The notes under the pieces were generated by a model. It did not search any database. It saw only the letters and a program-made list of their open reading frames with translations, and was not told the DNA's origin. DNA of 64,000 bases from Pseudomonadota bacterium (GTDB lineage Bacteria > Pseudomonadota > Gammaproteobacteria > Steroidobacterales > Steroidobacteraceae), in the NCBI GenBank assembly GCA_025357635.1, contig JANXOV010000073.1:1-64000 (forward strand), given 5' to 3'. Below are positions 14,406 to 64,000 of the stretch, one piece after another. Each line of letters begins with the position of its first letter. Within the stretch, counting starts at the first letter, position 1. Position numbers and translations under genes: made by a program.

Positions 14406-14800
14406 TTCTAGTCGATACGAACGTACTGTTAGATGTGTTTCAGGACGATTCGCAGTGGGCAAAATGGTCGCAGGATCAGCTCGATACCGCCCTGCTCACA
14501 GATCGACTTGCCATCAATGCGGTGATCTACGCTGAGCTATCGATCGCTTACAGCAGGATCGAGGATCTTGAAAAAGTCGTCGCTGGCACGTCGCTTAAAG
14601 TCGAAGCCATGCCGCGCGAAGCATTATTCCTCGCAGGAAAGGTGTACCGCGACTACAGGCGCAAACAAGGGCGCAAGACAGGAGTCCTGCCTGATTTCTT
14701 CATTGGTGCGCACGCTGCCGTACAGAATTGCCCGATTCTCACGCGTGACACGGCCCATTACAGGACCTACTTTCCCGGTGTGCGGCTCATCTGCCCGTAG
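14402..14800 (+). CDS. PIN-domain ribonuclease toxin (VapC-like)
   Basis: MILVDTNVLLDVF...; AVIYAELSIAY; DFFIGAHAA; LTRDTAHYRTYFPGVRL PIN acidic motifs. Confidence 0.85.
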   Translation: MILVDTNVLLDVFQDDSQWAKWSQDQLDTALLTDRLAINAVIYAELSIAYSRIEDLEKVVAGTSLKVEAMPREALFLAGKVYRDYRRKQGRKTGVLPDFFIGAHAAVQNCPILTRDTAHYRTYFPGVRLICP

Positions 14801-14840
14801 CGCAGCGGTGAGTTCTGAGCTGCCGCCGCAATGGCGTCCG

Positions 14841-20775
<5,935 letters not shown>

Positions 20776-45470: not shown

Positions 45471-45537
45471 ACAGCCGCGGCCTGCGCAGCGTACCTGAGG
45501 TTGTCAACCGGTCCGCGTGTGCCCCGTTGTACCGTGC

Positions 45538-46914
45538 ATGCTTGCCGAGATAGCCGCATTACGGTTCGGATTGGGCGCCCGCCCCGGCGAACTGCGCGAG
45601 TCCGCCGGCGATTCGCGCGGCTGGCTGCGCGCGCAGATCCGCGGGCCTGTGAACCTCGCGGTGGCCGCGGACCTCGCGCCGTCCGCCCAAATCCTGAACG
45701 CCTTTCTCGCCGCACGCGAACAGCGAAAACAGGCCAAGCGCAGCGGCAATGACGCGGATCTTCTGACTGCGTTCAAGGAGGCGTATCTGCCGCATTACCG
45801 CGCGCAAGTATTGGTGCGCGCGCAAAGCGCCGCCGTCACACGGCGCCCCTTTGGCGAGCGCCTCGTGCACTTCTGGTCCAATCACTTTGCCGTCTCCGCG
45901 GACAAAGGACTGGTCACCGGCATCGCCGGCGCGCTGGAGAATGAAGCCATCCGTCCGCATGTTTGCGGTCACTTCGCCGACCTGCTGTTCGCCGTGGAAA
46001 AACACCCGGCGATGATCGGCTTTCTCGATAACCAGGCCTCGGTGGGGCCGGCCTCACCGGCCGCGCGCTGCATGAGCCGCCGCGATGACAAGCGCGAGCC
46101 GGGCATCAACGAAAACCTGGCGCGCGAGATCATGGAACTGCACACACTGGGTGTGAACGGCGGCTACTCGCAGGCAGACGTCACGAGCTTTGCCAAGGTG
46201 CTCACCGGCTGGTCCATCGGCGGCATGCACGGGCACGTCCGTGGCGGGGATCCGGGCCGCTTTTATTTCCGCGACAATGCCCACGAGCCGGGATCGCAGA
46301 CCGTGCTCGGCCGAGGATTTTCGCAGGCAGGCATCGAGCAGGGCGAAGCCGTCCTGCGCTCGCTCGCGCAGCATCCTTCCACCGCGCACTTTCTGGCCGA
46401 CAAACTCGCGCGCCATTTCGTGGCGGATGATCCGCCGCCGGCGTTGGTGGATCATCTGGCGCACGCGTACCGGCAATCCGACGGCCATCTGCCAGCCGTC
46501 TACGACGCCTTGATTGACGACGACCTTGCCTGGGCCACGCCGGCACAGAAGTACAAGACGCCACAGGAACTGGTGTTCTCCACGCTGCGCGCCTTCGATG
46601 TTCAACCCCGTGAGCCGCAGGAGGCGCTGCACAGTTTTGACTTCCTCGGCCAGCGCCAGTACACGCCAGGATCCCCGGCGGGCTGGCCCGACACGGCCAG
46701 GAGCTGGGATGGCTCGGATGCGCTGATGCATCGGGTGCTGTGGGCGGCGCGGATGGGCGAGCGATTTGAAACAGGCCATGACCCGGTGACCCTGTGCCGC
46801 GAGGCGCTGGGCCACTACGCTCGGCCGGAAACCATCACGGCCTTGCAGCGCGCAGCCTCCGGCTCCCAGGCGCTTGCGCTGCTGATCATGAGCCCGGAGT
46901 TCCAGCGGCGATGA
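45538..46914 (+). CDS. DUF1800 family protein
   Basis: ALRFGLGARPGE...RRPFGERLVHFWSNHFAVSADKG...NENLAREIMELHTLGVNGGYSQADVTSFAKVLTGWSIGG. Confidence 0.9.
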   Translation: MLAEIAALRFGLGARPGELRESAGDSRGWLRAQIRGPVNLAVAADLAPSAQILNAFLAAREQRKQAKRSGNDADLLTAFKEAYLPHYRAQVLVRAQSAAVTRRPFGERLVHFWSNHFAVSADKGLVTGIAGALENEAIRPHVCGHFADLLFAVEKHPAMIGFLDNQASVGPASPAARCMSRRDDKREPGINENLAREIMELHTLGVNGGYSQADVTSFAKVLTGWSIGGMHGHVRGGDPGRFYFRDNAHEPGSQTVLGRGFSQAGIEQGEAVLRSLAQHPSTAHFLADKLARHFVADDPPPALVDHLAHAYRQSDGHLPAVYDALIDDDLAWATPAQKYKTPQELVFSTLRAFDVQPREPQEALHSFDFLGQRQYTPGSPAGWPDTARSWDGSDALMHRVLWAARMGERFETGHDPVTLCREALGHYARPETITALQRAASGSQALALLIMSPEFQRR

Positions 46915-48134
46915 AAAGCGTCAGCCGCAACAATCGATTCACCCGACGCCGTTTCCTGTTCGGCGCAGGCGCCCTCGCGGTCGGCGCCGCACTGCCCGAT
47001 GCGCTGTTCGCCAAAACCGGCGGCGAGGCGCGATTCGTGGCCATCATCCTGCGCGGCGCGCTGGACGGCCTGGCCGCCGTGCCGCCCTACGCCGACCCGC
47101 ACTACGCAGGTCTGCACCGGGATCTGGCCATTGCCGCGCCCGGCACGCAGGCAGGCGCGCTGGATCTGGACGGCCATTTCGGATTGCACCCCTCGCTGAG
47201 TTTTCTGCACGAGCGCTATCGCAGCGGCGAACTCGCGGTGATGCAGGCCGTGGCCTCGCCCTACCGCGACCGGTCGCATTTCGACGGCCAGGCCGTGCTG
47301 GAGAATGGTCTGACCCGCGCCGTGGGCAGCGCCGATGGCTGGTTGAATCGCGCGCTTGCGGTGATGCCGGCCCGCGCGACCGGCGCAGCGGCCGAGCACG
47401 CGCTGGCGCTGAGCCAGAACGTGCCGCTCATTCTGCGCGGCAATCAACGGGTGCAGTCGAAGTCCCCGCAGGTTACGCCCGCAGTGGATGAGGATCTGCT
47501 GACCCGGCTGGCGGATCTGTACTCCAAGGACGACTGGTTCTCGGCGCGACTGAGCGAGGCGGCGAACATGCAGGCAATGCCGGCGCCCGGTACGGACAAC
47601 CCCAGGCCTCAGATCAACGCCCGCATTCAACAATCCGCGCAAATGGCCGCCGCCATCATGGCCGCCGACGGCGGCCCGGAAATCGCCGTGCTCGAAGCCT
47701 CAGGCTGGGACACTCACGCCAACCAGGGTGCGGCGCAGGGCACACTGGCCAACCGCCTGGCCGGGCTGGATCACGCACTGCGTGCCTTCAACGACGGGCT
47801 TGGGCCCTTATGGCGCCACGCCGTGGTGATGGTGGTGACGGAATTTGGCCGCACCGCCGCGATGAACGGCACGCGTGGCACCGATCACGGCACGGCCGGC
47901 TGTTGTTTCGTGATGGGTGGCGCCATCGCCGGCGGCCGGGTCATGACCGACTGGCCCGGATTGGCGCCGGCCGATCTGTATCAAGGGCGCGACTTGCAAC
48001 CCACGCAGGATCTGCGCGGCGTGTTCAAAGCGGTGCTGACCGATCATCTGAGAATCGACCGGAGCAGCGTGGAGCGCCTGATTTTCCCGGAAAGCGCGGA
48101 CATCAAGCCGGTATCCGGCCTGATCAAGGGGTAA
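46911..48134 (+). CDS. DUF1501 family protein with Tat-like signal
   Basis: NRFTRRRFLFGAGALAVGAALP twin-Arg signal; VAIILRGALDGLAAVPPYADPHY; VVTEFGRTAAMNGTRGTDHGTAG; ATGA overlap with DUF1800 gene. Confidence 0.92.
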   Translation: MKSVSRNNRFTRRRFLFGAGALAVGAALPDALFAKTGGEARFVAIILRGALDGLAAVPPYADPHYAGLHRDLAIAAPGTQAGALDLDGHFGLHPSLSFLHERYRSGELAVMQAVASPYRDRSHFDGQAVLENGLTRAVGSADGWLNRALAVMPARATGAAAEHALALSQNVPLILRGNQRVQSKSPQVTPAVDEDLLTRLADLYSKDDWFSARLSEAANMQAMPAPGTDNPRPQINARIQQSAQMAAAIMAADGGPEIAVLEASGWDTHANQGAAQGTLANRLAGLDHALRAFNDGLGPLWRHAVVMVVTEFGRTAAMNGTRGTDHGTAGCCFVMGGAIAGGRVMTDWPGLAPADLYQGRDLQPTQDLRGVFKAVLTDHLRIDRSSVERLIFPESADIKPVSGLIKG

Positions 48135-49381: not shown

Positions 49382-51241
49382 TCAAGGACCCCCGCCGACC
49401 GAAAACGCCAGCAGCACATTGCCCGGCATGTGGCCATACAGCCCGTAGCCGGAGTTCACGTACACCATGCCCTGATAGACGACCGGACCCGGACCGCCGA
49501 TCGTTCCGCCGCGGCCCGTCGCTCCCGACAGCGTGGTGATGGGCGCCGTGGTGTCATGGCTCCACAGCACCTTGCCGCTGCCGCTGTCATAGGCGCGGAC
49601 CCGCCCGTCCATGTGGCCTGCGAAAACGGCCCCGGGAATCGCGGTGATGGCGGCCAGAATACCCGAGTCGCAAAAATCCCGGCCGGCGCACACATTGTCG
49701 GCGGGGCTGGACCACAGCAGCTTGCCATCCGCAGGGTTCAGCGCGTAGAGGCCGGGACGCGCAGGTTCGTTGTAGACACGGCCATCGTGGGCATCGGCCA
49801 TATCCGACACCGGCACGTACAAACGCGATTGATCGGCAGCCATCGCGAACTGCACCCCGCCTTGGATGCTGCCGCGGCCCAGCTTGGCCTGCCACACGGC
49901 CGTGTCGTGCTTGTCCGGATCCAGGGCGAACACCGTGCCGTCTTTGCGCCCGACGAGTATCAATTCCTTGCCCGTTGGCAACGTCGTAAGAATCGTGCCC
50001 GCGCCGATGTCGAAATCCGGGCCCACTTTGTCGGGGCAGCCTTCGATGCCGACCATGCAGGCGATGTTCCAGGTATCACCGGCCACGGATTGCCAATGCC
50101 AGCGAATCGCGCCGCTGGCCATATCGAAGGCAACCACCGAATCACTCAGGTTGGTGGCGGGCGATGAATAATTGTTGCCGGTGCCGACGTACAGCAGCCC
50201 GCGCTTCAAGTCCAGGGTCGGAGAATTCCATATCGGTACGCCCGAAGGTCCCAGGGTGAGCGTCCCGGATTTGGTTTTGCCGGTGGGCGCTGCAGGCCGG
50301 TCGACGCTGTAGGTTTTCCATAGCGTTGCCCCGCTGCCGGCATCCAACGCCACCAGCGAGCCGCGAAAGCTGCAACAGGGATAGGTCGGATCCACCCCCG
50401 CCTCTTCCAACGAGGAGACCGGAACGTACAAGCGGCCGGCATGGTAGACCGGTGCACCGGTGATGGTCGCGCTGGGATGATCATCCATGCGCTGCTTCCA
50501 TTTCAATGCGCCCGTGCCGGCATCCAATGCATAGACGCGGCCCAGGATGTCGCCGAAGAATGCAAGCGACGCACCGCCGGACGCGCTGCTCTGGCTGTCC
50601 GACAGCACCACGGGCGTACGCACTTCGGCAGTGGCGCGATAGGTCCAGCGCACGCAGCCGCTTGCCGCATCGAGCGCGTAGACCGTGCCGTTCTGACTGC
50701 CGACGAACAGCATCCCCCTCGCGAACGTGGGTTGGGAGCGCGCGCGTATGGCGCCGTGATAGTTCAACGCCCATTTGAGCTTCAACTTTGGAATCTGGGC
50801 AGCCGACAGGCCGGCCACCGCCGCGGGGATCAGGCGGGTGTTGCGGTCATCGAATCCCCAGCTGGGGAGCGCCGACCCGCCGGACGATGCGGTCTCGTTC
50901 CTCTGCGCGTTGCAGCGCGGCGCTTGCGCGACCGCGGCAGCCTGCTCCACGGTTTCACCGGACAGATAATGGGCGACGTCGCGCTTTTGAGCCTCGCTCA
51001 ATCCGGCGGACTGTCCTTGCATGATGCCGCTGATGAGCGCCGCGGCGATGGCGTCCGCCGGCATGAGCTGCAGGAAAGTCTTGCTCGGCGCCTTGGGCAC
51101 CTGGCCCAGATGGCAGTGCGCGCAGCGCTCCTTGAAGATCGGGGCGCCGGGCAGGTTTTCCGGATTCGGCGCTGCCGCCAGGCAGGTCCCGCCGATGGTC
51201 AGCACCAAGGCCATCCACAAAGCCGCAGGATTGATTCTCAT
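49382..51241 (-). CDS. Heme c + PQQ-propeller dehydrogenase (polyvinyl-alcohol-dehydrogenase-like)
   Basis: Signal peptide; FKERCAHCHLGQVPKAP c-type heme motif; W-rich propeller repeats (GTVYALDAASGCVRWTYRA, GRVYALDAGTGALKWKQRM, GSLVALDAGSGATLWKTY). Confidence 0.8.
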   Translation of the reverse strand: MRINPAALWMALVLTIGGTCLAAAPNPENLPGAPIFKERCAHCHLGQVPKAPSKTFLQLMPADAIAAALISGIMQGQSAGLSEAQKRDVAHYLSGETVEQAAAVAQAPRCNAQRNETASSGGSALPSWGFDDRNTRLIPAAVAGLSAAQIPKLKLKWALNYHGAIRARSQPTFARGMLFVGSQNGTVYALDAASGCVRWTYRATAEVRTPVVLSDSQSSASGGASLAFFGDILGRVYALDAGTGALKWKQRMDDHPSATITGAPVYHAGRLYVPVSSLEEAGVDPTYPCCSFRGSLVALDAGSGATLWKTYSVDRPAAPTGKTKSGTLTLGPSGVPIWNSPTLDLKRGLLYVGTGNNYSSPATNLSDSVVAFDMASGAIRWHWQSVAGDTWNIACMVGIEGCPDKVGPDFDIGAGTILTTLPTGKELILVGRKDGTVFALDPDKHDTAVWQAKLGRGSIQGGVQFAMAADQSRLYVPVSDMADAHDGRVYNEPARPGLYALNPADGKLLWSSPADNVCAGRDFCDSGILAAITAIPGAVFAGHMDGRVRAYDSGSGKVLWSHDTTAPITTLSGATGRGGTIGGPGPVVYQGMVYVNSGYGLYGHMPGNVLLAFSVGGGP

Positions 51242-51264: not shown

Positions 51265-52026
51265 TCAAAATTGTGACACGCCGAGCGCGATGCCGCCGTC
51301 GACTTCCAGCGCGACGCCCGTCACCCATTCGGCGCGGATCAGATATTCCACCGCCTCGGCTATTTCCGTTTCAGTGCCGATGCGGCCCAGCGCGTGCAGC
51401 GGCGCGACCGCCGCGTAGCGCTCTGTCGCCTGCGGCGCGGTGAACAGCCCGGCGCGCAGATTCAGTTCGGTGCTGACGGCGCCAGGCAAAATGCAGCCGA
51501 CACGAATCAGTTTGCGTCCCAGTTCAGCCGCCATGACGCGCGTCAATCCTTCCACGGCCGCCTTGGTGGTCGCATAAGGAGAGGCGCCCGGAAACGCCCG
51601 GCGCGTGTGGGTGGAGCCGATGAACACGATCGAGCCCTGCGTCTTTTCCAGATGCGGCACCGCAATGCTGGACAGCATCATGGCGGAGATCACGTTGGTG
51701 TCGAAAGCTTCCTTGAGCAGGGCCTCGGTGTATTCCCCGACCGCCTGCCGGTACATGTTCGCCGCATTGTTAACCAGGGCATCGAGCTTGCCGCCATGCG
51801 CGATGGCCGCCTCCAGCATGCGGTGCCGGTCGGCATCGACCGTCACATCGCCGGCAATGCCGAGACAGGCGGGCCCGATGCTGTTTGCCACGGCCTGGAT
51901 TTTCTCCTGCCGGCGTCCGCTGATGGTGACGCGCGCGCCGCGCCCGGCCAGATAGCGGGCAATGCCCGCGCCGATGCCCGAGCCGCCGCCGGTAACGAGC
52001 ACCGACATGTCTTTCAATTCACGCAT
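51265..52026 (-). CDS. SDR family oxidoreductase
   Basis: VLVTGGGSGIGAGIARYLAGRGARV, LVNNAAN, FIGSTHTRRAFPGASPYATTKAAVEG. Confidence 0.93.
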   Translation of the reverse strand: MRELKDMSVLVTGGGSGIGAGIARYLAGRGARVTISGRRQEKIQAVANSIGPACLGIAGDVTVDADRHRMLEAAIAHGGKLDALVNNAANMYRQAVGEYTEALLKEAFDTNVISAMMLSSIAVPHLEKTQGSIVFIGSTHTRRAFPGASPYATTKAAVEGLTRVMAAELGRKLIRVGCILPGAVSTELNLRAGLFTAPQATERYAAVAPLHALGRIGTETEIAEAVEYLIRAEWVTGVALEVDGGIALGVSQF

Positions 52027-52045
52027 TGCATTCTTGCCCCCGAAG

Positions 52046-53038
52046 TTAACGCCGCAACAATCGCCGCGCATTGTCCGCCAGATACGGCGGCGCGGCATCG
52101 CTGCGCAAGCTCTCCGGCTGATCCCAGCCGGCAAAATTGGTGCCCAGCACCAGCCGCTCCTCACCCACGATGCTCCTGAGCAGCGCCAGGGAGCGCTCAT
52201 CGTGTACATGGTTGTCGAACCACAGGCGCTTCAGGCGCGATTCGAATGCGCCCTCATCGCGCAGCGCGCCCTGCGACCAGGGGCGTTTGCGGGCCGCCTG
52301 CGACAATCTGCCGCTCAGGAAACCGACCGCACCGCCGCCGTGGCTGACGCAGATGTCCAGATCCGGATGCCGGTCGAGCACGCCGCCGAAAATGAGCGTC
52401 GCCACCGCGATGGTTTCCTGCGTGGCGAATCCGATCAACAGATCCAGATCGAAGTAATTCACCGCCGGAAACGCGGCCGGTCCGTCGATGCCGGCAGGCG
52501 CCGGATGAAAAAACAGCGGGACATTCAACTCCACGCAGCGGCGGTACAGCGGATCCAGCGCCGCCGAATCCAGGCGGATGCCGAACTCCGTGCCGACGTA
52601 GGGCGCCCACAATCCCAGTTCCTGCACGGCCCGCGTGAGTTCATCGGCGGCGGCCTGCGGGTCCTGCATGGGCAGGGCCGCAAAGCCCGCCAGGCGCTGC
52701 GGAAAAGCGGCGATGCGCTGCGCCGTGACGTTGTTCTGGCGCCGGCAGAATGCGCTGGCCGAGGCTGTGTCGATGAAGTGGAAATAGGTCAGCGGATTCG
52801 GCGACACAACCTGAAAGTCGATGCCGGCCTTGTCCATGGCCGCGATACGCACGTCCAGATCCATGAAGGCGCTGCCGCGATAGCGCACGCCGTGCAATCG
52901 GTAGCCGCCGACTCTGAACAGCGGCCGGCCATCCGGCGCCGTCGTCAGTTCAGGCCCATGCTCGCCGGCTGCGCCGAAGGTTTCTTCGAGCACGATGTGC
53001 GCATGGATGTCGATGGTTCTTGCGCTGCGTATGGACAT
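52046..53038 (-). CDS. ACMSD-type amidohydrolase (amidohydrolase 2 family)
   Basis: RTIDIHAHIV HxH, PLFFHPAPAG, DICVSHGGGAVGF, LVLGTNFAGWDQPESL. Confidence 0.88.
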   Translation of the reverse strand: MSIRSARTIDIHAHIVLEETFGAAGEHGPELTTAPDGRPLFRVGGYRLHGVRYRGSAFMDLDVRIAAMDKAGIDFQVVSPNPLTYFHFIDTASASAFCRRQNNVTAQRIAAFPQRLAGFAALPMQDPQAAADELTRAVQELGLWAPYVGTEFGIRLDSAALDPLYRRCVELNVPLFFHPAPAGIDGPAAFPAVNYFDLDLLIGFATQETIAVATLIFGGVLDRHPDLDICVSHGGGAVGFLSGRLSQAARKRPWSQGALRDEGAFESRLKRLWFDNHVHDERSLALLRSIVGEERLVLGTNFAGWDQPESLRSDAAPPYLADNARRLLRR

Positions 53039-53048
53039 CGGCGATTCC

Positions 53049-53417
53049 TCAGCGGCCTTCGCGCTGGCGCAGGTACGTGGCCAGATCGAAGTAATCCCGC
53101 CAGGCGGCGATCAATCCGTCGCGGATTTCGAACGCGCCCATGATGGGCAGTTTCACGTGCACGCCGCCAATACCGAATTCGTCGATTCTTTCGGTGAGAA
53201 CCGTGTCGCCGGATTCGGCAATCGCCAGCAGTTTCCAATCCACCCAATCGAAACTGCCCGCGCTGTGCAGATAGGTGCGGACCGCCTCGCGACCCTGGAT
53301 GGGTTGCAGCGGAATATTGTGATAGCGGACATCCGGGTGCAGCGAAGCGACCACTCGATCCAGGTCGTTGGCGTTCCACGCATCGATGAAGGCACGAATG
53401 ATATCCGCGTGCGCCAC
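53049..53417 (-). CDS. NTF2-like/SnoaL-type small protein
   Basis: IIRAFIDAWNANDLDRVVASLHPDVRYHNIPLQPIQGREAVRTYL...ILTERIDEF..; GTG start sharing one base with upstream TAG. Confidence 0.85.
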   Translation of the reverse strand: MAHADIIRAFIDAWNANDLDRVVASLHPDVRYHNIPLQPIQGREAVRTYLHSAGSFDWVDWKLLAIAESGDTVLTERIDEFGIGGVHVKLPIMGAFEIRDGLIAAWRDYFDLATYLRQREGR

Positions 53418-54208
53418 TACAGGTAACCCTGCACGGTGCCGCCGTCGACCTGGAGCGCTGCGCCGGTGACGTAGCTTGCGCGCGCCGAGCCGAGGAACAC
53501 GATGACATCGGCAATCTCGTTTGCATCGGCGAGCCGGCGCATCGGAATGCCCAGCGCGATGCTCTGCTCGACCGAGTGGCTGTCGGATGCCGATCGGCGC
53601 GCCCGTTCATCGACGATATCGCGGACCCGCTGCGTGCGCGTCCAGCCCGGGCAAACCGTATTCACCAGCACGTTGTCCTGCGCCACTTCATTGGACAGTG
53701 ATTTGGCCCAGCCCAACACGGCAAGGCGAATGCTGTTGGAGAGCAACAGGCCATCGATCGGCTGTTTGACCGAGTAGGAGGACACATTGACGATCCGGCC
53801 CCATCGACGCTGCCGCATGCCCGGCAATACTTCGCGGGTCAGGCGTATGGCGGACATCAATGTCAGATCCACTGCACGCTGCCAGGCCGCATCGTCCAGC
53901 GCCGCGAAATTGCCGGGCGGCGGGCCGCCGACATTGTTGACCAGCACATCGACCCCGCCCCACTGGCTTTGCACGCGCGCATACAAAGCCTGAGCGCCGT
54001 CCGGCTGCGACAAATCGGCGGCCACCGCAAGCACGCTGCCGGCGCCGCCGGGATCCAGCCGGCGCACGGCCGCCTCCAGATTCTTTTCACTGCGAGAGCA
54101 GATGGCAACGCGCGCGCCCTCCTGCACGAAGGCCTGTGCCGTCGCCAGCCCGATGCCGGCGCTCGCACCGCTGACCAGAACCACCCGATCGTTGAGTCCT
54201 AGATCCAT
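53417..54208 (-). CDS. SDR family protein with non-canonical active site
   Basis: VVLVSGASAGIGLATAQAFVQEGARVAICSRSEKN; LVNNVGG; VSSYSVKQPIDGLLLSNSIRLAVLGW instead of YxxxK. Confidence 0.9.
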   Translation of the reverse strand: MDLGLNDRVVLVSGASAGIGLATAQAFVQEGARVAICSRSEKNLEAAVRRLDPGGAGSVLAVAADLSQPDGAQALYARVQSQWGGVDVLVNNVGGPPPGNFAALDDAAWQRAVDLTLMSAIRLTREVLPGMRQRRWGRIVNVSSYSVKQPIDGLLLSNSIRLAVLGWAKSLSNEVAQDNVLVNTVCPGWTRTQRVRDIVDERARRSASDSHSVEQSIALGIPMRRLADANEIADVIVFLGSARASYVTGAALQVDGGTVQGYL

Positions 54209-54211
54209 GTT

Positions 54212-54955
54212 TCAGCCTGCCGTCAATCCAAGTCCCAGCCCGCCGTCCACATCGACGATGGCGCCGGTGGTCCACTCGGCGCAACACAGATAGCCGATCG
54301 CTTCGGCAATCTCGGTCTCGGTGCCGATGCGCCCCAGTGCGTGCATCCCCGCCATGCCTTCGAGGCGTTTGCGGGCGGTGGCGTCATCGAACAGTCCGGC
54401 GCGTTGATTGATTTCGGTGAGCACGGCGCCGGGCACCACGCAGTTCACGCGAATGCGCTGTTCTCCCAATTCGGCCGCCAGCACCCGCGTCAGCACTTCC
54501 ACGGCGCCTTTGGTCGCTGCATAGGGCGAAGCGCCCGGGTAGGCGCGCCGCGTATGCACCGAGCCGATGAAAATCACCGCGCCCTGCGTCTTGGCCAGAT
54601 GCGGCACCGCCAGACCGGTGAGCAGCATGGCCGCGATGACGTTGGAGTTGAACACTTCCATCAGCTTATCTTGCGTGAGCGTGGCGATGGGTCCGCGGTA
54701 CATGTTGCCGGCGTTGTTGACCAGCACATGCAATCCGCCGCCGTGCTCCACGGCACCGGCCAGAATCGACTGCCGGTCCGCCGCCTGCGTGATGTCACCG
54801 ACCACGACGCGGCACGCGGCGCCCAGGTCGTGGGCCACCTCGGCAAGCTTGTCGCCGCGCCGGCCGCAAATGGTCACGCGCGCGCCGCGCGCCGCAAAGT
54901 AACGCGCCGTGCCGGCGCCGATTCCCGATCCGCCACCCGTGATCAGCACCGACAT
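54212..54955 (-). CDS. SDR family oxidoreductase (paralogue of 51265..52026)
   Basis: MSVLITGGGSGIGAGTARYFAARGARVTICGRR; FIGSVHTRRAYPGASPYAATKGAVEV. Confidence 0.93.
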   Translation of the reverse strand: MSVLITGGGSGIGAGTARYFAARGARVTICGRRGDKLAEVAHDLGAACRVVVGDITQAADRQSILAGAVEHGGGLHVLVNNAGNMYRGPIATLTQDKLMEVFNSNVIAAMLLTGLAVPHLAKTQGAVIFIGSVHTRRAYPGASPYAATKGAVEVLTRVLAAELGEQRIRVNCVVPGAVLTEINQRAGLFDDATARKRLEGMAGMHALGRIGTETEIAEAIGYLCCAEWTTGAIVDVDGGLGLGLTAG

Positions 54956-54965
54956 TGCCTGGATC

Positions 54966-55682
54966 TCACGCAAGACCCACCTCCTGCCCGACCGCGTTCG
55001 GCTGCACCAGCCAGGCCACGGCCCGGTCGAGAATTTTCCGATGCGTCGGCTCGTTGATCGACTCCACCCCATGTCCCAGCGCATCGTAAACGACGCGGCC
55101 CTTGCCGAAGCGATGCGTCCACATCACCGGTTGATAGTCCCCATCCGGCACAGTGCGTGCGCGCAGGATGGGGCGTGCCTGCGCGTCAAGCCGCAGACCG
55201 TGATAGACCTCGTCGAACACCTGGAACGGCGGGACATCCTGCGTCAGCGTCCCGCGCGGCTCGATGGATTCCACCTGCACCATGCCGGTCGGCGGATGAA
55301 AGGATTGGCCCCATACCCATTGTGCACCGAGGATCGACCCCCACCCGGCCCAACTGTCAAAACAAATGCTGGCCGTGTGCAGGCCGAGCAGAGCGCCGCC
55401 GCGGCGAACGAAATCAGTCAGTGTTTCGCGTCCGGAGAGAGAGAGATTGAAGGCCCATTGGGCGCGAAATGGCGCGTATTTTTCATTCTGCGTCATGCTG
55501 AATCGAAGCGCGTTCACGGTCAGCAGCCGGCACTTGCCCGATTGCGCCAGCGCCTGCAAAGCGGTTTCAGGATCCAAGAAGACCTGCGTGCGCAGATTCA
55601 ATGCGGCGCAGCGCGCGGCCAGCAGCGCCGAAGTCTGCTCGAACTCGTGGTAGATCCCCCCGGCAATCAGCACATGATCCAT
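54966..55682 (-). CDS. ThuA-like domain protein
   Basis: VLIAGGIYHEFEQTSALLAARC...LTDFVRRGGALLGLHTASICFDSWAGWGSILGAQW...HPPTGMVQVE...PVMWTHRFGKGRVVYDALGHGVESI. Confidence 0.8.
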   Translation of the reverse strand: MDHVLIAGGIYHEFEQTSALLAARCAALNLRTQVFLDPETALQALAQSGKCRLLTVNALRFSMTQNEKYAPFRAQWAFNLSLSGRETLTDFVRRGGALLGLHTASICFDSWAGWGSILGAQWVWGQSFHPPTGMVQVESIEPRGTLTQDVPPFQVFDEVYHGLRLDAQARPILRARTVPDGDYQPVMWTHRFGKGRVVYDALGHGVESINEPTHRKILDRAVAWLVQPNAVGQEVGLA

Positions 55683-55696
55683 GGGCGTTGAGCCGG

Positions 55697-56437
55697 CTAT
55701 TCGCGCGGCAGGCCCGCCAACACGCTGTTGACGACGCCGCCATCGACAATGAGCTCATGGCCGTTGATGTAAGAGCCTTGATCCGAGGCCAGAAACAGCA
55801 CCGCGTTGGCGATGTCCTGCGCCGTTCCCAGACGCCGCTGCGGCACGGCGCCGCCGCGCAGTTCACGCACCCGCGGATTCGCATAGATTGGCGTCGACAT
55901 TCCCGCATCGATGAAGCCCGGCGCAATCGCGTTGACGCGAACGCCGCCCGGGCCCCACTCCAGCGCCATATGCTGCGTCAGCGACACGATGGCCGCCTTG
56001 GTGGCCGGATAGGCGCCCGAACCGGGCGCCGGATGCGTGGCGTTGATCGAGGACATGTTGATGATGACGCCGGAGCCGCGCTCGAGCATGCCGCGCGCAA
56101 CCGCGCGCGCCGTGACGAAGGTGCCGATGAGATTGACGTTCACCGCGGCTTTGAAGTTCTCCAGGCTGTGCTCCAGCAAAGGACCGAAGCGCACGATGCC
56201 GGCGTTGTTGACCAGCACGTCCGGCGCAGCGCCGAGTGAGCGCAGCACGGCATCCACCGCCTGTTCATCGCTCACATCCACACCAAAGGCGACGCCGTCT
56301 TTGAGACTGAGCGCCACGGCGGCGGCGCGCGCCGCGTCCACATCCAGCACCGCGACGCGATAACCGGCCGCGGCGGCCGCGCACGCAATGGCCTCACCGA
56401 TGCCTGCGCCCGCGCCGGTCACCATCATCGTCTTCAT
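55697..56437 (-). CDS. SDR family oxidoreductase
   Basis: [67 protein letters not shown]; 4-nt overlap with P450. Confidence 0.93.
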   Translation of the reverse strand: MKTMMVTGAGAGIGEAIACAAAAAGYRVAVLDVDAARAAAVALSLKDGVAFGVDVSDEQAVDAVLRSLGAAPDVLVNNAGIVRFGPLLEHSLENFKAAVNVNLIGTFVTARAVARGMLERGSGVIINMSSINATHPAPGSGAYPATKAAIVSLTQHMALEWGPGGVRVNAIAPGFIDAGMSTPIYANPRVRELRGGAVPQRRLGTAQDIANAVLFLASDQGSYINGHELIVDGGVVNSVLAGLPRE

Positions 56438-57636
56438 ATCTTGAACTCCACGGGGTATCGGCCCCAATTCTGGCGCTGCGTGTTCGGGTCCGCCACCGGT
56501 GGGTCGCGCGGATCCGGCCGCGCGCCGGCCTGCAGCAACTCGGCCACGAGCAGGGTCACGAGACCATATTGGTGAGTCGCCGGGTCGACATCCGAGCGGG
56601 CGATGATTCCGCCGTCCAGATCCCGGCCGAGGCACGCATGCACGCCGGTTCCGAACGTCAGACCGAAGGGAAACAAGCCCTGCGGCACGCGTCGGCCCGG
56701 CTTGAACTCATCCGCATCAGCGCCGAAAACGCTTTGATCCCGGTTTGCGGCCGCCAGGTCGATGACGACGCGATCCTTCGAATCCAATTGGTCACCGGAC
56801 TTCAACGTGACCGGGCAGGTGGGCCGGCGCCAGGCGACCGGACTGGCCGGGTGCAGGCGCATGCTCTCGTGCACGCAGCGCTGCACGAACAGCCGGTCGC
56901 GGCGCACCCGCGCCCAATCCTCGGGATGCTGATCGCACCAGGTGAAAATCTCGTGCATGGCATGCGCCATGGAGTTGGACGTGCTGTGCGAGCCGGCTTG
57001 CAGATAAAACGCCATCTCGCGCAGCAGCACATCGGGCGGCAGATCGATCTTGTCTTCGTTGCGAAGCAGCACCGTCAGCACATCGCGCGGCAATTCCTCC
57101 TCGTCGATTTCCCCTGCCGCCAGGCGTGCGATCAACGCCTGCCGGCGCGCCATGGAAGGGGTGAGAAATTCTTTCTGCAGTGCCGCCAGCGCGCTGCGCA
57201 CCTCCGCCTGCACACGCAGCGGATCGCGCTTGGAGTGAACCAGGGTGGCGCCTTCGCTGAACGTCTTGACCAGGCCGAACAGCGCCTCGGTTTCCCCGAC
57301 GGTTCCCGCCGGTCGGTCAATACCGGCGAAATCGGCGGTCAGATTTATGGTGACGCGGTAGCCGAATTCGATGAGACTGGCGCGGCCGGCGTCGAGGTAG
57401 GGCTGCAAAGTCGCGCGCAGCGTCGCCGGAAAAACCTCGCGCTCGTAATAGGCAAAGAAGTTCTTGCGAAAAACGCGGAACTCCAGCAGCCGCCGCACCC
57501 GATGCTCCTCGCCATGCAGCGTCAGCAGCACCTTGTCCATGACGACGGCGCCCGCCTCGTACATGGATTGCGCCAGATCGGGATTGCGCAAGGCGGCGCC
57601 CGCCGCGTCGAACCCCGTCACGAAGGATTGCTTCAC
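56434..57636 (-). CDS. Cytochrome P450
   Basis: ExxR (HESMRLHPASPV), heme loop PFGLTFGTGVHACLGRDL, I-helix FYLQAGSHSTSNSM. Confidence 0.95.
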   Translation of the reverse strand: MKQSFVTGFDAAGAALRNPDLAQSMYEAGAVVMDKVLLTLHGEEHRVRRLLEFRVFRKNFFAYYEREVFPATLRATLQPYLDAGRASLIEFGYRVTINLTADFAGIDRPAGTVGETEALFGLVKTFSEGATLVHSKRDPLRVQAEVRSALAALQKEFLTPSMARRQALIARLAAGEIDEEELPRDVLTVLLRNEDKIDLPPDVLLREMAFYLQAGSHSTSNSMAHAMHEIFTWCDQHPEDWARVRRDRLFVQRCVHESMRLHPASPVAWRRPTCPVTLKSGDQLDSKDRVVIDLAAANRDQSVFGADADEFKPGRRVPQGLFPFGLTFGTGVHACLGRDLDGGIIARSDVDPATHQYGLVTLLVAELLQAGARPDPRDPPVADPNTQRQNWGRYPVEFKI

Positions 57637-58847
57637 GGCAACGAAAACACGATCGGATACCGCAACCAGGTCTCGCGTTCGGTGCTCAGATCCTGTTGCG
57701 GTCCCTCCTGAGGATCGGGCCGCACACCATGCATCAATAGCTCACGCGCCACCAGGGTGATCGTTCCGTACTGATGCGTGTTCGAATCGGTGGTGGCCTT
57801 GGGGATGTCACCTGCCGCCAGGTTCTTGCCCAGGCAGCTGTGAACCCCGACCCCGAATGTCAGTCCGTAAGGCATGTGCGGCGGTGACTTCGCGCGCTGC
57901 GGATTGAATGCCGCGGCATCCTCTCCGAATGCGTCGACCTGGCGATTGGCCTGAAACAGACTCACCACCACGGTGTCATCGACGCCGGCCACCTCACCCT
58001 GCGCCAGCGTCACCGGGCACAGAGGGCGGCGCTTGGAAACCGGGCTGGCCGGGTGCAGCCGAAAACTCTCATGCACGCAACGCTGCAGATACAAGGGCTC
58101 AGCGAGCAGCCGCGCCCGCTGCGCCGGATCCCGAGCGCACAGCTCGAACAGCTCGTGCATGACATGCGAAATCGAATGCACCGAGGTATGGGCGCCGGCC
58201 AGAAAATAAAAGGCGGTTTCGCGCAACATCATGTCCCGCGGCAGATCCACCTGTTCTTCGTTGCGGACAAGAAGCGTCAGGATATCGCGCGGCAGGCTGT
58301 CCTCTGCGATCACGCCTTGCCGGAATTGCGCAACCAAGGCCACGCGCCGCGCCACCGACGGATTGAAATAGCGCGCTTCGAACTCCTGCATGCCCTGCGT
58401 GATCGATGCCTTGAGCGCGGCAAACTCCTCGCGCGATCCCTTGAACTGGCCGATGGTGGCGGCGTTGCCGAATACGCGCAGCAATCGCACCAGATCCGCC
58501 GTTTCGGCCTCCGTGCGCAACGGCCGGTCGATGCCCGCGAAATCGGCGGTCAATCCGACCATGCACTGATAGGCCACGTCGATGAGATCCACTCGAACCG
58601 CGGCGACGAACGGCAGCAGCGTTTCGCGAATGACTTTCGGCAGCACCTGCGTTTCGTAATAGGCGAAGAAATCCTTCTTGAAAATCTTCATTTCCAGCAG
58701 GCGCCGCCGGCGATGCTCCTCGCCGTGCAAGGTCACGAGCACCCGGTCCATCAGCGCCGCTCCTTCGTCGTACAAGGATTGCTTCAGATCCGCAATGGAC
58801 AGCGTTTGCTGCGCTTCGCGAAAGCCGGTGACGGTGATGGTTGCCAT
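57633..58847 (-). CDS. Cytochrome P450 (paralogue of 56434..57636)
   Basis: ExxR (HESFRLHPASPV), heme loop PYGLTFGVGVHSCLGKNL, I-helix FYFLAGAHTSVHSI; 4-nt overlap with next P450. Confidence 0.95.
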   Translation of the reverse strand: MATITVTGFREAQQTLSIADLKQSLYDEGAALMDRVLVTLHGEEHRRRRLLEMKIFKKDFFAYYETQVLPKVIRETLLPFVAAVRVDLIDVAYQCMVGLTADFAGIDRPLRTEAETADLVRLLRVFGNAATIGQFKGSREEFAALKASITQGMQEFEARYFNPSVARRVALVAQFRQGVIAEDSLPRDILTLLVRNEEQVDLPRDMMLRETAFYFLAGAHTSVHSISHVMHELFELCARDPAQRARLLAEPLYLQRCVHESFRLHPASPVSKRRPLCPVTLAQGEVAGVDDTVVVSLFQANRQVDAFGEDAAAFNPQRAKSPPHMPYGLTFGVGVHSCLGKNLAAGDIPKATTDSNTHQYGTITLVARELLMHGVRPDPQEGPQQDLSTERETWLRYPIVFSLP

Positions 58848-58849
58848 GA

Positions 58850-60187
58850 TCAGTGTTTCCGGCCGCGCATCGCCAGCTCGCGTGTCAGAATCTGGCTGGA
58901 ATACAGGCTGACGCGCCAGCCCGGAATCGCGCGACGCTCGCGTTCCGGCCGCTGCAGATCGACGAAATGGCCATCGGCCATGACGTATTTCATTTTCGAG
59001 CGATCACCGAGCACGGTGACGTCTTTGGACGGATCACCCTGAAGAACGATCAGGTCGGCGAGCCGGCCCGCGGCAATTTCACCCACCTGCCCTTCCATGC
59101 GCAATGCGCGCGCCGCATCGAAGGTCGCCGCACGGATGGCTTGCAGCGGCGTAAACCCCAGGTCGCGCACGAACACTTCAAGTTCGCGGTAATGCCACTC
59201 CCCCAGGGGAGTCAGCGAGAACCCGCTCTCGGTTCCGCACAACAAGGGCACTCCCGCCGCGTGCAGCCGCTGCAGCATGACGGCGCTGTCGGCAATCTCG
59301 CGGCGGAACATTTCCTGCAGCGCCGGGTCGGCGTTCACCGCATCGCCGTAGTCGGCCAGATTCGCCTGGAACGCAAACGTCGGCACCACCGGCACCTTGC
59401 GTTCGCATACGGCATCGAAGGCTTCTTCGTCCATGTGCGTTGCATGCAAAATCATGTCGAACCCGGCGCGCACGGCGTCGCGCGTACTGCCGGCGTTGCG
59501 GCAATGACCGACCACCGGGATGCCCAGCGCATGGGCCGCATCGCACACCGTACGCAATTCATCCATGGACCAGACCGTGAGCTCGCCCTGCGATCGCTGC
59601 CTCGGGATCAGGCCGGTCACATGCACCTTGATCCAGTCGACGCCGTTTTTGATCTGCCGCCTGACTTCGGCGACGATTTCGTCGCGCGAACGCACGATCA
59701 CCGCATAGCCGCGGATGCCCTCGTCCGGAAACAGCCGCCCGGCGGTGCCGCCGACCGAGGTCAGCAGCGCGTGCCCGCCCGTGGTCATGCGCGGACCTTC
59801 GACGATGCCGGCCTCGATCGCATCGCGCAGATCCGTACCGATCTCGAAAATGGAATCCGCATCGAAGAAACCGGTGACGCCGGCGCACAGCAGCTTGCGC
59901 ATGTCGGCCGCGGCGATGATGGCGGAGAGCGCGGCGCGGCGATGAAAGAACAGCTCGTCGTTGGAGCGCGGCGCATCGAAGGTGACATGGCAATGCGCGT
60001 CGATGAGGCCGGGCATGAGCGTTGCGCCGGCGATGTCGATGCGCCGAAGGTCGAGGATCAGCGCTGCGCGCTGCGCCGCTTGCGCACCGGTGGCGGTAAT
60101 CCTGTTTCCCTCCACCAGAACGTCGACGGCACGGGCGGGTGCGCCCGTGCCGTCGATGACACTACCATTCTGAAACAGAACCGCCAT
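58850..60187 (-). CDS. Imidazolonepropionase-like amidohydrolase
   Basis: LMPGLIDAHCHVTFD, DWIKVHVTG, VVGHCRN, HATHMDEEA, LLCGTESGFSLTPLGEW, AAGRLADLIVLQGDP. Confidence 0.92.
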   Translation of the reverse strand: MAVLFQNGSVIDGTGAPARAVDVLVEGNRITATGAQAAQRAALILDLRRIDIAGATLMPGLIDAHCHVTFDAPRSNDELFFHRRAALSAIIAAADMRKLLCAGVTGFFDADSIFEIGTDLRDAIEAGIVEGPRMTTGGHALLTSVGGTAGRLFPDEGIRGYAVIVRSRDEIVAEVRRQIKNGVDWIKVHVTGLIPRQRSQGELTVWSMDELRTVCDAAHALGIPVVGHCRNAGSTRDAVRAGFDMILHATHMDEEAFDAVCERKVPVVPTFAFQANLADYGDAVNADPALQEMFRREIADSAVMLQRLHAAGVPLLCGTESGFSLTPLGEWHYRELEVFVRDLGFTPLQAIRAATFDAARALRMEGQVGEIAAGRLADLIVLQGDPSKDVTVLGDRSKMKYVMADGHFVDLQRPERERRAIPGWRVSLYSSQILTRELAMRGRKH

Positions 60188-60188
60188 A

Positions 60189-62564
60189 TCAGAACTTCAG
60201 CTGTACATCCACTCCGTAAGTGCGCGGCGGGCTGAGCGTTCCGAATGTCCACAGTCCGGCCACCGGCACCGCACTGTTGCCGGGTCCCGCGTTGTAGTTG
60301 GTGCCGACGTCAAGCACGTGCAGGAAATGCCGCTCGTCCGTCAGGTTCTTGGCCCAGGCCGTGACCTTCCAGGACTTCGCATCATAGGCGAGCATCAGAT
60401 CCAGATTGCCGTAGGACTTGATGAGGCCGGGATTGCTGCTGAAAGCGCCCTGCGGGCTGACGTCATAGGGCGACAGCGTGTTCGCAACGATGTAGTAGTC
60501 GTCCTTGTAGGCATAGTTGGCGCCGTAGTCAATGCTGTGGCCGTTGGAAAGCGACTGCTCATACAGAAGGTTCACCGCGGCCGTGAACTTGGGCGCACGC
60601 CGCAGCTTGAAGCCTTTCTTGTCGACGGTACCGCCGGAGAGGCCCGGCACATTCCAGCTGTCGTACTTGGCATCGAGATAGCCCAGATTGATCCCAGCGG
60701 TGAAGCCCTGCACCGGCACCGCGGTCAGTTCCAATTCGGCGCCCTTGAGCGTGGCTGAAGCCGCGTTCTGCACCAGCGTCACCGTCACCAGATTCGGATC
60801 CGGGAACACCACGTCTTCCTGCTTGTTGGTGTACTTGGTGTGGAACACGGCGAGGTTCGCGCGCAGGCGATTGTCCATCCACTGTGTCTTGGCGCCCAAC
60901 TCGACCGACTTCACCTTCTCCGGCTCATACGGCCCGAGGGTCTTCGGATCGCTGGAACGGCCGTTGAAGCCGCCCGAGCGGAAGCCTTCCGAATAGGTGG
61001 CATACACCATCTTCGACGGATCGACGCGCCAGGACAGGTTCACGCGCGGCGTGAACTTGGACCAGGTACGCCGGCCGGTCTGCGTGATGGTATTGCCGTT
61101 CACGTCCACATACGAGGCGATGTAGTTGCCGGCATCGCAGGTGCCGAAGCTGCTCTGCACGGCGGAAAGATCGGTCGGATCGTAGTTGATGGCGCAGGCG
61201 TCTTTCTTCTCACGCGTGTAGCGGCCGCCGACACTCAGGGTGAAATTGTCGATGAACTCCCAATCCACCTGGCCAAACAGCGCCGAGGAGGTGGTGCCCT
61301 GTTTGTAGTACGGCGCACCGAACGGGCCGCCGCCAAAGAAGGTCAGCTGACGCAGGTTATAGCTGCCGTCGAAGTAGTAGGCGCCGAGCGTGGAACGCAG
61401 CTTGGAGGTCCAGTCCGACTCGAGGCGCAGCTCTTCGCTGAACTGATGGCTGCTCTGCGGCCGCACCGTATTGAAGAACGACAACTCAAATGGCGGCGTC
61501 ACTCCCGGCGGCGACAGCGTGGTCGTCTGGCCGTCGAATTCCTCGATCGCATCTTCCTTGACATCGCGGTAACCGGTGACCGAGACGATGCGCTGCGTGT
61601 CGCTGATCTGCCACTTCGCGTTCAACGTGGCGGCCTTGGTCTTGAGGAAGGCCGTCTGCTCCAGCGAGGTGTGGGTGGTGCCGTGATAGTTCTCATCGCC
61701 CGCCGGCGCGCCGCCGACAAAGGCGCCCAGTACTTCCAGCGGTCCGGTGATGGAGGTCACCGGGCGCGTCGGGGACTTGTCGTCGAAGTAATCCAGGATC
61801 AGGCCCAACTCCAGCTTGTCCGTGGCCGCGAGCGTCGTGAACAGCGAAACGCCGGTGAAGGCCGTGTCGCCCTCGCGCTTGCCGTTGCGCGTGTAAGTCA
61901 CGTTCTTCCAATACCCGCCGCCGGACTGGCGCACCACTGACAGCTTGGTCTTGAGCTTGCCGTCGAAGGCGGCGTCGAAGTTCAGCACCGCATGGCCGTC
62001 GAACTGCTGGAAGCGTCCGTAGCCCAGCTGCAGCTTGCCACCGAACTCGCCGGTGGGCGCGGCGCGGCGGATGTTGAGCAGACCGCCGATGGTGTTGCGG
62101 CCGAACAGCGTGCCCTGCGGCCCGCGCAGCACTTCGATGTCGGCCGCGTCGAACATCTGCAGCAGCGCACCGGTGGTGTTGGCGAGATAGATGCCGTCCA
62201 AATACACGGCGACCGCCGGGTCGAAGGACTTCTCCACATCGTTCAACTGCATGCCGCGGATGGAAATGGCCGCGGTGCCGTTGCCCAGGATCGGATCCAC
62301 GATGAGGTTGGGCGCAAGCTGTGCCACGCCTTGTATGTCGCGCGAATGCGAGCGCTCGATGGCCGCCGCGTCCAGCGCGGTAAGTGCGATGGGCACGCTC
62401 TGCGCGCTTTCGTCGCGCTTTTGAGCCTGCACGATGATTTCTTCAAGTCCTACGACTTCCGCCACAGGTTTGACGTCCGCCGCGGACACGGGCAGGGCGA
62501 AGGCGCTCACCGCCAGCCCGGCACACAGGGCCGACAACCACTTGTTGGATAAATATTTGTTCAC
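60189..62564 (-). CDS. TonB-dependent receptor
   Basis: Signal peptide, TonB box-like EEIIVQAQKRDESAQSVPIALTALD, plug IEVLRGPQGTLFGRNTIGGLLNI, C-terminal LSPPRTYGVDVQLKF; GTG start (MNKYLSN...) with GGGAGCGGGAA upstream. Confidence 0.95.
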   Translation of the reverse strand: MNKYLSNKWLSALCAGLAVSAFALPVSAADVKPVAEVVGLEEIIVQAQKRDESAQSVPIALTALDAAAIERSHSRDIQGVAQLAPNLIVDPILGNGTAAISIRGMQLNDVEKSFDPAVAVYLDGIYLANTTGALLQMFDAADIEVLRGPQGTLFGRNTIGGLLNIRRAAPTGEFGGKLQLGYGRFQQFDGHAVLNFDAAFDGKLKTKLSVVRQSGGGYWKNVTYTRNGKREGDTAFTGVSLFTTLAATDKLELGLILDYFDDKSPTRPVTSITGPLEVLGAFVGGAPAGDENYHGTTHTSLEQTAFLKTKAATLNAKWQISDTQRIVSVTGYRDVKEDAIEEFDGQTTTLSPPGVTPPFELSFFNTVRPQSSHQFSEELRLESDWTSKLRSTLGAYYFDGSYNLRQLTFFGGGPFGAPYYKQGTTSSALFGQVDWEFIDNFTLSVGGRYTREKKDACAINYDPTDLSAVQSSFGTCDAGNYIASYVDVNGNTITQTGRRTWSKFTPRVNLSWRVDPSKMVYATYSEGFRSGGFNGRSSDPKTLGPYEPEKVKSVELGAKTQWMDNRLRANLAVFHTKYTNKQEDVVFPDPNLVTVTLVQNAASATLKGAELELTAVPVQGFTAGINLGYLDAKYDSWNVPGLSGGTVDKKGFKLRRAPKFTAAVNLLYEQSLSNGHSIDYGANYAYKDDYYIVANTLSPYDVSPQGAFSSNPGLIKSYGNLDLMLAYDAKSWKVTAWAKNLTDERHFLHVLDVGTNYNAGPGNSAVPVAGLWTFGTLSPPRTYGVDVQLKF

Positions 62565-62670
62565 TTCCCGCTCCCCGATGTTGTGGAATGGCCGGGGTTC
62601 GACGCACCGGCTCGCGATAACCCCTGGATAATACATCGAAATCGATCTAAATGAGCAATCGCAGATTGTC

Positions 62671-63771
62671 TCATTCACGCAACCCCGCCTGGCGCATCAG
62701 CGGCAGGATCTTCTGCTTGAACTGCGTCAGGCCGGCATCGTAGTTGAGCCAGCTGAGGGTGATGCCGTCGAGTCCGGCGCGGGAAAACGCCAGCATTCCT
62801 TCGACGACCTGTTCGGCCGTCCCCACCAGGGGAATGGCGCCATAGCCGGCGATGAGATTGGATGCCATCGCCTCCCAGCCCGTCCCCAGCGCGCTCTTGG
62901 AGTTCGGGACTAGCACATCTAATAGGTTGCGGACGCCGGGCCAGTCGCCCTTCACATTCACATAGTCGTTGACGTACTCGCGCGCCTCGCGCTCGGTGTC
63001 ACGGCACACCACATAGGCCTGGCCGAATACCTGCATGCGGCGGCCAAATTTCTCCGCTGCAATGCGTTTGCCGGTCGCCGCAATTTCTCCGGCCGCCGCG
63101 ATGTCCTTGGCGACGACGAAATTCAAGTCCGCATGCTGGGCGGCGAACAGCTGACCGCGCGCGCTGTTGCCGGCGCTCATCAACGGCGGATGTGGGGATT
63201 GGACCGGCTTGGGTTCGGAGTAGGCCCCCGGCGAGGGGAAGTAGGGGCCCTCATGATCGAACTCGCCTTTCGCCGTCCACAGCCGCTTGCACAGCGTGAT
63301 CCAATCGTCGGCGACGTCATAGCGCACGTCATGCTCCTTCTGCGGCACGCCGAACATGCCGATTTCCTTCGAGTTCCAGCCGGCCACGATGTTCAGCCCG
63401 AAGCGCCCCCTGGAGATGTGGTCGATGGTCGCGACTTCCTTGGCCGCGCGGATCGGATGCACCGTGGGCACATGGAAGGTCGCGAAGACGGATATCTTGC
63501 TGGTCACGGCCGACAGCCCGGCCGCCCAGGTGAAGGTCTCGAAATTGCGGTGATTGAAGTTGACGTTGCCGCCCATCCCCTTCCACCGCGCCACCGGAAT
63601 GATGGCCTCGATGCCGGCGGATTCAGCCAATTGGGCGATGCGCACCGATTCGTCCCAGGTGACCTGCAAGACTTCCGGCGAATCGGTCATGGAGCAGCCG
63701 CCGCTGACATTCAAGCCGAAAACGGCCAGCTTGAGCTTGTGCGGACTGGTCAGGATCGGATTGTTGGACAT
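62671..63771 (-). CDS. LLM class flavin-dependent oxidoreductase
   Basis: KLAVFGLNVSGGCSMTD...WDESVRIAQLAESAGIEAIIPVARWKGMGG...ISRGRFGLNIVAGWNSKEIGMFG; start set at MSNNPILTS. Confidence 0.92.
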   Translation of the reverse strand: MSNNPILTSPHKLKLAVFGLNVSGGCSMTDSPEVLQVTWDESVRIAQLAESAGIEAIIPVARWKGMGGNVNFNHRNFETFTWAAGLSAVTSKISVFATFHVPTVHPIRAAKEVATIDHISRGRFGLNIVAGWNSKEIGMFGVPQKEHDVRYDVADDWITLCKRLWTAKGEFDHEGPYFPSPGAYSEPKPVQSPHPPLMSAGNSARGQLFAAQHADLNFVVAKDIAAAGEIAATGKRIAAEKFGRRMQVFGQAYVVCRDTEREAREYVNDYVNVKGDWPGVRNLLDVLVPNSKSALGTGWEAMASNLIAGYGAIPLVGTAEQVVEGMLAFSRAGLDGITLSWLNYDAGLTQFKQKILPLMRQAGLRE

Positions 63772-63867: not shown

Positions 63868-64000
63868 CTAGACGCGCGGGCCGAGCATTCGTGCCAGATC
63901 CAAAATGGTGTCGAGGTTATGCGCCGATGCGTTGCGATGAGCGTGACGCGCCAATACGCCAGCGCCGGCGGCGAGCGGCTGGTAGCCGGCGTGCCGCCGC
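63868..64000 (-). CDS. 3'-terminal fragment of a CDS running off the window edge
   Basis: Open frame on minus strand ending ...RHAHRNASAHNLDTILDLARMLGPRV*. Confidence 0.35.
   Translation of the reverse strand, partial: RRHAGYQPLAAGAGVLARHAHRNASAHNLDTILDLARMLGPRV

Follow-up and report, generated by a model that had tools for sequence, protein, structure and literature searches.

Gene content and organisation of the cluster

The window analysed is a stretch of 64,000 nucleotides, corresponding to positions 1-64000 of the 101,765 on contig JANXOV010000073.1. Twelve co-oriented genes were found at 51265-63771 on its minus strand and were assigned to families by Pfam. They are listed below in the direction of transcription, followed by the genes adjoining them on either side.

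62671-63771, minus strand: LLM-class flavin monooxygenase, RutA/SfnG-like (PF00296, 3.8e-53; RutA and SfnG matches in PDB)
60189-62564, minus strand: TonB-dependent outer-membrane receptor with signal peptide, probable GTG start at 62564 (PF00593, PF07715)
58850-60187, minus strand: AH1, amidohydrolase of the Xaa-Pro dipeptidase/ochratoxinase/imidazolonepropionase group (PF01979, Amidohydro_1; PDB matches)
57633-58847, minus strand: P450B, cytochrome P450 (PF00067)
56434-57636, minus strand: P450A, cytochrome P450, paralogue of P450B (PF00067)
55697-56437, minus strand: SDR1, short-chain dehydrogenase (PF13561, 2.2e-58)
54966-55682, minus strand: ThuA-fold protein (PF06283)
54212-54955, minus strand: SDR2, short-chain dehydrogenase (PF13561)
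53417-54208, minus strand: SDR3, short-chain dehydrogenase (PF13561)
53049-53417, minus strand: limonene-1,2-epoxide hydrolase (LEH) homologue (PF07858, 9.5e-24; PDB 5aih, 1.1e-22)
52046-53038, minus strand: ACMSD-like amidohydrolase (PF04909, Amidohydro_2; ACMSD match in PDB)
51265-52026, minus strand: SDR4, short-chain dehydrogenase, paralogue of SDR2 (PF13561)
49382-51241, minus strand: cytochrome c/PQQ-propeller dehydrogenase, accessory gene at the left end (PF13360, PF01011, PF13442)
63868-64000, minus strand: 3' end of coxE, coding for a VWA maturation protein; it is part of a molybdenum hydroxylase module, which runs on to contig position 70305, with MarR to 70846

The intergenic gaps range from -4 to 19 nt, except for 106 nt between the LLM and TonB genes when the GTG start of the latter is taken as 62564. 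An earlier sequence-only reading had described a compact co-oriented set here, and every gene that it named was recovered by Pfam on the minus strand at correct coordinates. Of the two ATGA overlaps that it gave, the one at 56434-56437 (P450A/SDR1) is present, but the P450B/P450A overlap at 57633-57636 reads GTGA; and the gene that it called NTF2-like is instead the LEH homologue. Further left in the window, on the plus strand, a TamA-like (Omp85/POTRA) gene at 39987-41732 is directly followed by an ORF of 1245 aa (41733-45470, plus strand), probably TamB. Two overlapping genes of the DUF1800 and DUF1501 families, which are commonly paired, lie at 45517-46914 and 46794-48134, also on the plus strand.

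Flanking accessory modules

To the right, coxE ends at 63868, 97 nt before the start of the LLM gene. Beyond it on the contig and in the same direction lie coxD, the genes of an FAD subunit and a [2Fe-2S] subunit, and coxG, followed by a divergent molybdenum large subunit gene and a MarR gene at contig 67927-70846; the suspected continuation past the right edge of the window is thus borne out. Together they comprise a complete molybdenum hydroxylase of the CO-dehydrogenase type, with small, FAD and large subunits plus CoxG, CoxD and CoxE. The large subunit found its best PDB matches in CO dehydrogenase, quinoline 2-oxidoreductase and hydroxypseudooxynicotine dehydrogenase. In subunit composition and accessory proteins the module resembles the CO-dehydrogenase family, but its large subunit has the loop AYRGAGR, invariant in 24 sequences, and lacks AYxCSFR, the motif that marks form I CO dehydrogenase. 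Because of this loop, the enzyme is probably not a CO oxidiser. The module lies directly before P450B in one relative of the same family (genome G103, locus L046), and parts of it were found in loci L097, L117, L120, L127 and L129.

To the left, the PQQ/cytochrome c dehydrogenase gene is separated from the cluster by 23 nt, and counterparts with 46-50% identity were found in the clusters of L082, L097, L101 and L126. Both the molybdenum hydroxylase and the PQQ dehydrogenase belong to the cluster as accessory modules. The gene set at 51265-63771 is therefore not self-contained, as had been proposed, since these two modules and the MarR regulator are also part of it.

Conservation and distribution of the cluster

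Dozens of loci, from many genera of alpha-, beta- and gammaproteobacteria, share a core of AH1-P450B-P450A-SDR1-ThuA-SDR2, with identities of 35-77%, and its order was retained in most of them. Because distant relatives have the same genes in the same order, we conclude that 51265-63771 is a real, conserved cluster, far beyond what chance would give; a lack of synteny, which the sequence-only reading had named as grounds for rejecting it, was not what we found. Scanning the genome collection with the P450 alignment gave at least 78 loci out of 177 confirmed relatives, a number of loci that depends on the bait and is not a prevalence figure. The lineages represented were Steroidobacteraceae, Comamonadaceae-type betaproteobacteria, sphingomonads, marine PS1/OCS116/Rhodobiaceae and Pseudomonadales/Woeseiaceae. 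The cluster also occurs under the names Klebsiella pneumoniae, Janthinobacterium lividum, Pelagibacterales and Crocinitomicaceae (L097, L053, L080 and L084), MAG names that are probably incorrect or the result of mis-binning.

Among 43 loci of at least 15 kb found via the P450s, SDR1-type genes were present in 42 and SDR2-type genes in 40, counts which may include paralogues, as may that of SDR3 (24). AH1 was present in 37 of them, ThuA in 33, the ACMSD-like gene in 27, the molybdenum large subunit in 19 and LEH in 13. Distance correlations between cluster proteins ranged from 0.14 to 0.71 and partly reflect shared ancestry; rho was 0.65 for P450A and P450B, and 0.71 for SDR2 and ThuA.

Carriers made up 10 of 217 genomes of the family and 1 of 369 in the class sample; nine relatives of the same family have the whole or a partial set (G172, G175, G199, G167, G116, G166, G103, G140 and G115). 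The cluster was absent from the single other genome of the same genus, the phylum sample yielded no further carriers, and the phage collection no P450 match. A near-complete copy is carried by the conjugative plasmid pTHN (L129, 193367-224563), with an IS110-type transposase gene nearby. The patchy distribution in the family and the absence from the other genome of the genus fit gain by transfer, and the cluster has probably spread horizontally.

A divergent pair of cytochrome P450s

P450A and P450B are 49% identical to each other, and their matches to the Pfam P450 family and to P450s in PDB are weak. Both have the heme-thiolate FxxGxHxCxG motif and the ExxR of cytochrome P450, and the heme Cys, ExxR and the I-helix Ser/Thr are universal in the 136 P450 relatives surveyed (136/136). 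The canonical acid-alcohol pair of the I helix, Asp/Glu before Thr/Ser, is absent from this clade: the motif is AGAHTS in P450B and AGSHST in P450A, with His replacing the acid, and across the 136 sequences the acid position is occupied by His in 89, Phe in 23, Gln in 19, Leu in 2, Val in 1 and Glu in 2, the two sequences with Glu being without the clade motifs. By comparison, six of seven other P450s of the same genome carry Asp/Glu there. Another P450 of this genome (L001, G000 C112:2706-3947), with Val at the position (AGNVTS), falls outside the clade. Both P450s are members of a divergent clade in which His, Gln or Phe takes the place of the I-helix acid.

The predicted model of P450B (pLDDT 87.8) has a P450 fold, closest to those of CYP134A1, P450BioI and CalO2, with a best TM of about 0.7 at about 16% structural-alignment identity. 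Thus the pair shares the fold, heme Cys loop and ExxR with CYP134A1, P450BioI and CYP125, but differs from them in this low identity, in the His/Gln/Phe at the acid position and in its obligate-looking tandem arrangement. The A-type P450s form one monophyletic clade with a support of 100, and the order B then A was found in all 42 adjacent pairs, seven others being separate. P450A and P450B derive from an ancient duplication retained as an ordered pair. A copy of P450A near a contig end in one same-family relative (L034/L045, G166 C226:1127-2317) contains one internal TGA.

A [2Fe-2S] ferredoxin gene is present in seven clusters, and such a ferredoxin is a plausible electron donor. In place of the missing proton-relay acid, the P450s would probably rely on the Ser/Thr that they retain and on the His/Gln beside it, with the ferredoxin as reductant. 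A P450 on the megaplasmid of Streptantibioticus cattleyicolor (L128, 6524-20026), 44.5% identical to P450A and with His at the acid position, adjoins NRPS and B12 radical SAM genes. Given this location in an NRPS cluster, catabolism is not the only role in the clade.

Hydrolases and other enzymes of the cluster

AH1 does not have the canonical Amidohydro_1 active site with its catalytic Asp on beta-8: that position is Glu (CG[TS]E) in 54 of 54 matched relatives, while the other ligands (H65, H67, K187, H228 and H248) are conserved. The ACMSD-like protein likewise departs from the HxH, His and beta-8 Asp of ACMSD-type decarboxylases, having Asn301 at the metal-binding Asp position, within a GTNF[AS]GW motif present in 32 of 32 relatives, although the metal His residues are conserved. 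We take both substituted positions to be that of the catalytic Asp, judged by motif position in known families. The two proteins therefore resemble ACMSD and the Xaa-Pro dipeptidase/ochratoxinase amidohydrolases in overall family and metal His residues, and differ from them in the beta-8 residue, which is invariant among relatives. Two hydrolase/decarboxylase steps had been proposed; both amidohydrolases are present, but their non-canonical active-site residues make the steps uncertain. For the LEH homologue, the catalytic set (Y, N, R, D, W, D) is complete by alignment, with Y32, N34, R77, D79, W106 and D108 invariant in 13 sequences.

The best sequence matches of the LLM protein are RutA and the dimethylsulfone monooxygenase SfnG, but its scores are far below both equivalog cut-offs (182 against 383 bits, and 156 against 498), so that neither function can be assigned to it. 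Relatives at 65-74% identity were found in about five other loci, making it an accessory gene. In the ThuA-fold protein, H12, H102, H129, D157, E158 and H204 are invariant; its fold search matched ThuA-like, GATase-like and GH42 domain structures, and neither this search nor the literature gave a clue to function.

Import, regulation and proposed pathway

Importer modules and the MarR gene adjoin the core, and the type of importer depends on the lineage. Gammaproteobacteria and sphingomonads have TonB and MFS proteins, betaproteobacteria and part of the alphaproteobacteria a Liv-type ABC system, and L072 a TRAP system. Receptors related to the TonB protein described here were found in L048, L071, L097 and L120. 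The variation of importer type by lineage, together with the MarR gene, favours catabolism over biosynthesis. We consider it probable (about 0.7) that the cluster is a catabolic operon, probably MarR-regulated, for one dissolved natural organic compound or compound family. This agrees with the uptake-plus-oxidation cluster, apparently catabolic, that was first read from the sequence, as the genes form a conserved compact unit with importers beside the core.

In the pathway we propose, the substrate would be imported by TonB here and by MFS, Liv ABC or TRAP systems elsewhere, and the P450 pair, the molybdenum hydroxylase or both would insert oxygen. If a P450 produces an epoxide or arene oxide, LEH could open it to a diol; three or four SDRs would oxidise alcohols, AH1 would open a lactone, amide or imide, and the ACMSD-like enzyme may remove a carboxyl group or cleave a C-C bond. 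Lineage-specific variations could come from the OYE, LLM, Rieske or PQQ enzymes. LEH, LLM, OYE, PQQ and TonB are each found in fewer than half of the loci, and the steps assigned to them may therefore not be common to all clusters. Because the core has neither a CoA ligase nor a ring-cleavage dioxygenase, the route into central metabolism is either absent or encoded at another site.

Candidate substrates and alternative readings

N-heterocycles or cyclic amides, and terpenoids or other olefins, are the two leading substrate options. The former, a nitrogen-containing heteroaromatic or cyclic amide such as an alkaloid, a pigment or a vitamin-like compound, is a tentative but quite possible choice: the molybdenum hydroxylase would hydroxylate the position beside the ring nitrogen, ring opening would fall to AH1 and the RutA-like LLM protein, and the ACMSD-like enzyme would decarboxylate. 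The matches and the AYRGAGR loop of the large subunit, RutA among the best LLM matches, the grouping of AH1 with cyclic-amide and N-acyl hydrolases, and the Liv ABC importers of betaproteobacteria all point this way, as do the hydantoinase A/B genes adjoining the cluster of L067. There (14455-18930, in a marine Pseudomonadales MAG), hydantoinase A/B and a nitroreductase lie beside a variant cluster with two LLM genes. However, the molybdenum hydroxylase is present in only 19 of the 43 long loci, LLM and hydantoinase genes are rare, the LLM protein is equally close to SfnG and RutA, and a heteroarene would not call for LEH unless it passed through an arene oxide. The other option is an olefin, such as an alicyclic terpenoid, broken down in the manner of limonene, with P450 epoxidation, diol formation by LEH, SDR oxidation, a Baeyer-Villiger-type oxidation and lactone opening. 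The complete LEH catalytic set, the several SDRs, the LLM and ene-reductase genes of some loci and the TonB uptake are consistent with such a route, which parallels the limonene 1,2-epoxide pathway of Rhodococcus erythropolis DCL14 in its monooxygenase, LEH, SDR and ring-opening enzymes. That pathway, however, has no counterpart for the two P450s, the molybdenum hydroxylase, the ACMSD-like enzyme, ThuA or AH1, and the scheme leaves no place for the molybdenum hydroxylase and ACMSD-like enzymes; with LEH in 13 of the 43 long loci and acyl-CoA beta-oxidation genes lacking from most loci, we hold this option rather doubtful. The steroid, terpenoid or other hydrophobic substrate suggested at the outset stands as one possibility, but a soluble nitrogen-containing or aromatic compound fits equally, given the Liv ABC importers, hydantoinases and quinoline-oxidoreductase-like enzyme of some relatives. 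A steroid-specific substrate was not adopted, as the CYP125-like similarity of the P450s is weak (E about 1e-8 to 1e-11) and no identified neighbour gene points to sterols. Microcystin was rejected as a lead: two carriers are microcystin degraders, but the transcriptome paper on THN1 (PMC6691742) draws no link to the cluster, mentioning a P450 once and citing other work, and the marine distribution argues against it as well.

A biosynthetic cluster for oxidative tailoring of a small molecule is unlikely. Tailoring enzymes are often P450, SDR or SnoaL/LEH-like proteins, the S. cattleyicolor relative lies beside NRPS genes, and the folds nearest to P450B are those of CYP134A1, P450BioI and CalO2; but no scaffold-building enzyme such as a PKS, NRPS or terpene synthase was found among the annotated genes of the proteobacterial loci, the core has importers and a MarR gene as neighbours, and importer genes are exchanged between lineages. 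Most improbable of all is that these oxidoreductases are unrelated neighbours with no pathway in common, for although accessory genes vary and the SDR, P450 and amidohydrolase families are common, the order is fixed across classes at low identity, the gaps are near zero, and P450A with P450B and SDR2 with ThuA diverge in a correlated manner.

Significance of the cluster

The open-access literature yielded no description of this gene combination, steroid, bile acid, terpenoid, microcystin and limonene clusters having been considered, an absence that is not proof of an undescribed pathway; a match to a characterised degradation cluster, which the sequence-only reading would have taken as a refutation, was likewise not found there. 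The same literature contained nothing relevant on P450s with an I-helix His or on those of the PS1 clade. The cluster is therefore apparently uncharacterised. More speculatively, the two P450s might work together as a pair and represent a new P450 subfamily, activating oxygen (or catalysing a non-monooxygenase reaction) via His/Gln in place of the I-helix acid, as part of a pathway, not described before, that would act on some common constituent of dissolved organic matter and be shared by soil, lake and open-ocean bacteria. They represent a large natural set of P450s, in obligate-looking pairs, without an acid held to be important for oxygen activation, and both these atypical pairs and amidohydrolases with conserved active-site replacements occur in cultivable strains, carriers of this kind including Peristeroidobacter soli JW-3, Sphingosinicella microcystinivorans and Rhizorhabdus histidinilytica UM2. 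The carriers span the oceanic PS1 and OCS116 clades, lake betaproteobacteria, and soil sphingomonads and steroidobacters; given this presence in ocean, lake and soil lineages, the substrate is likely to be a natural compound of wide occurrence, with no genes as yet assigned to its breakdown.
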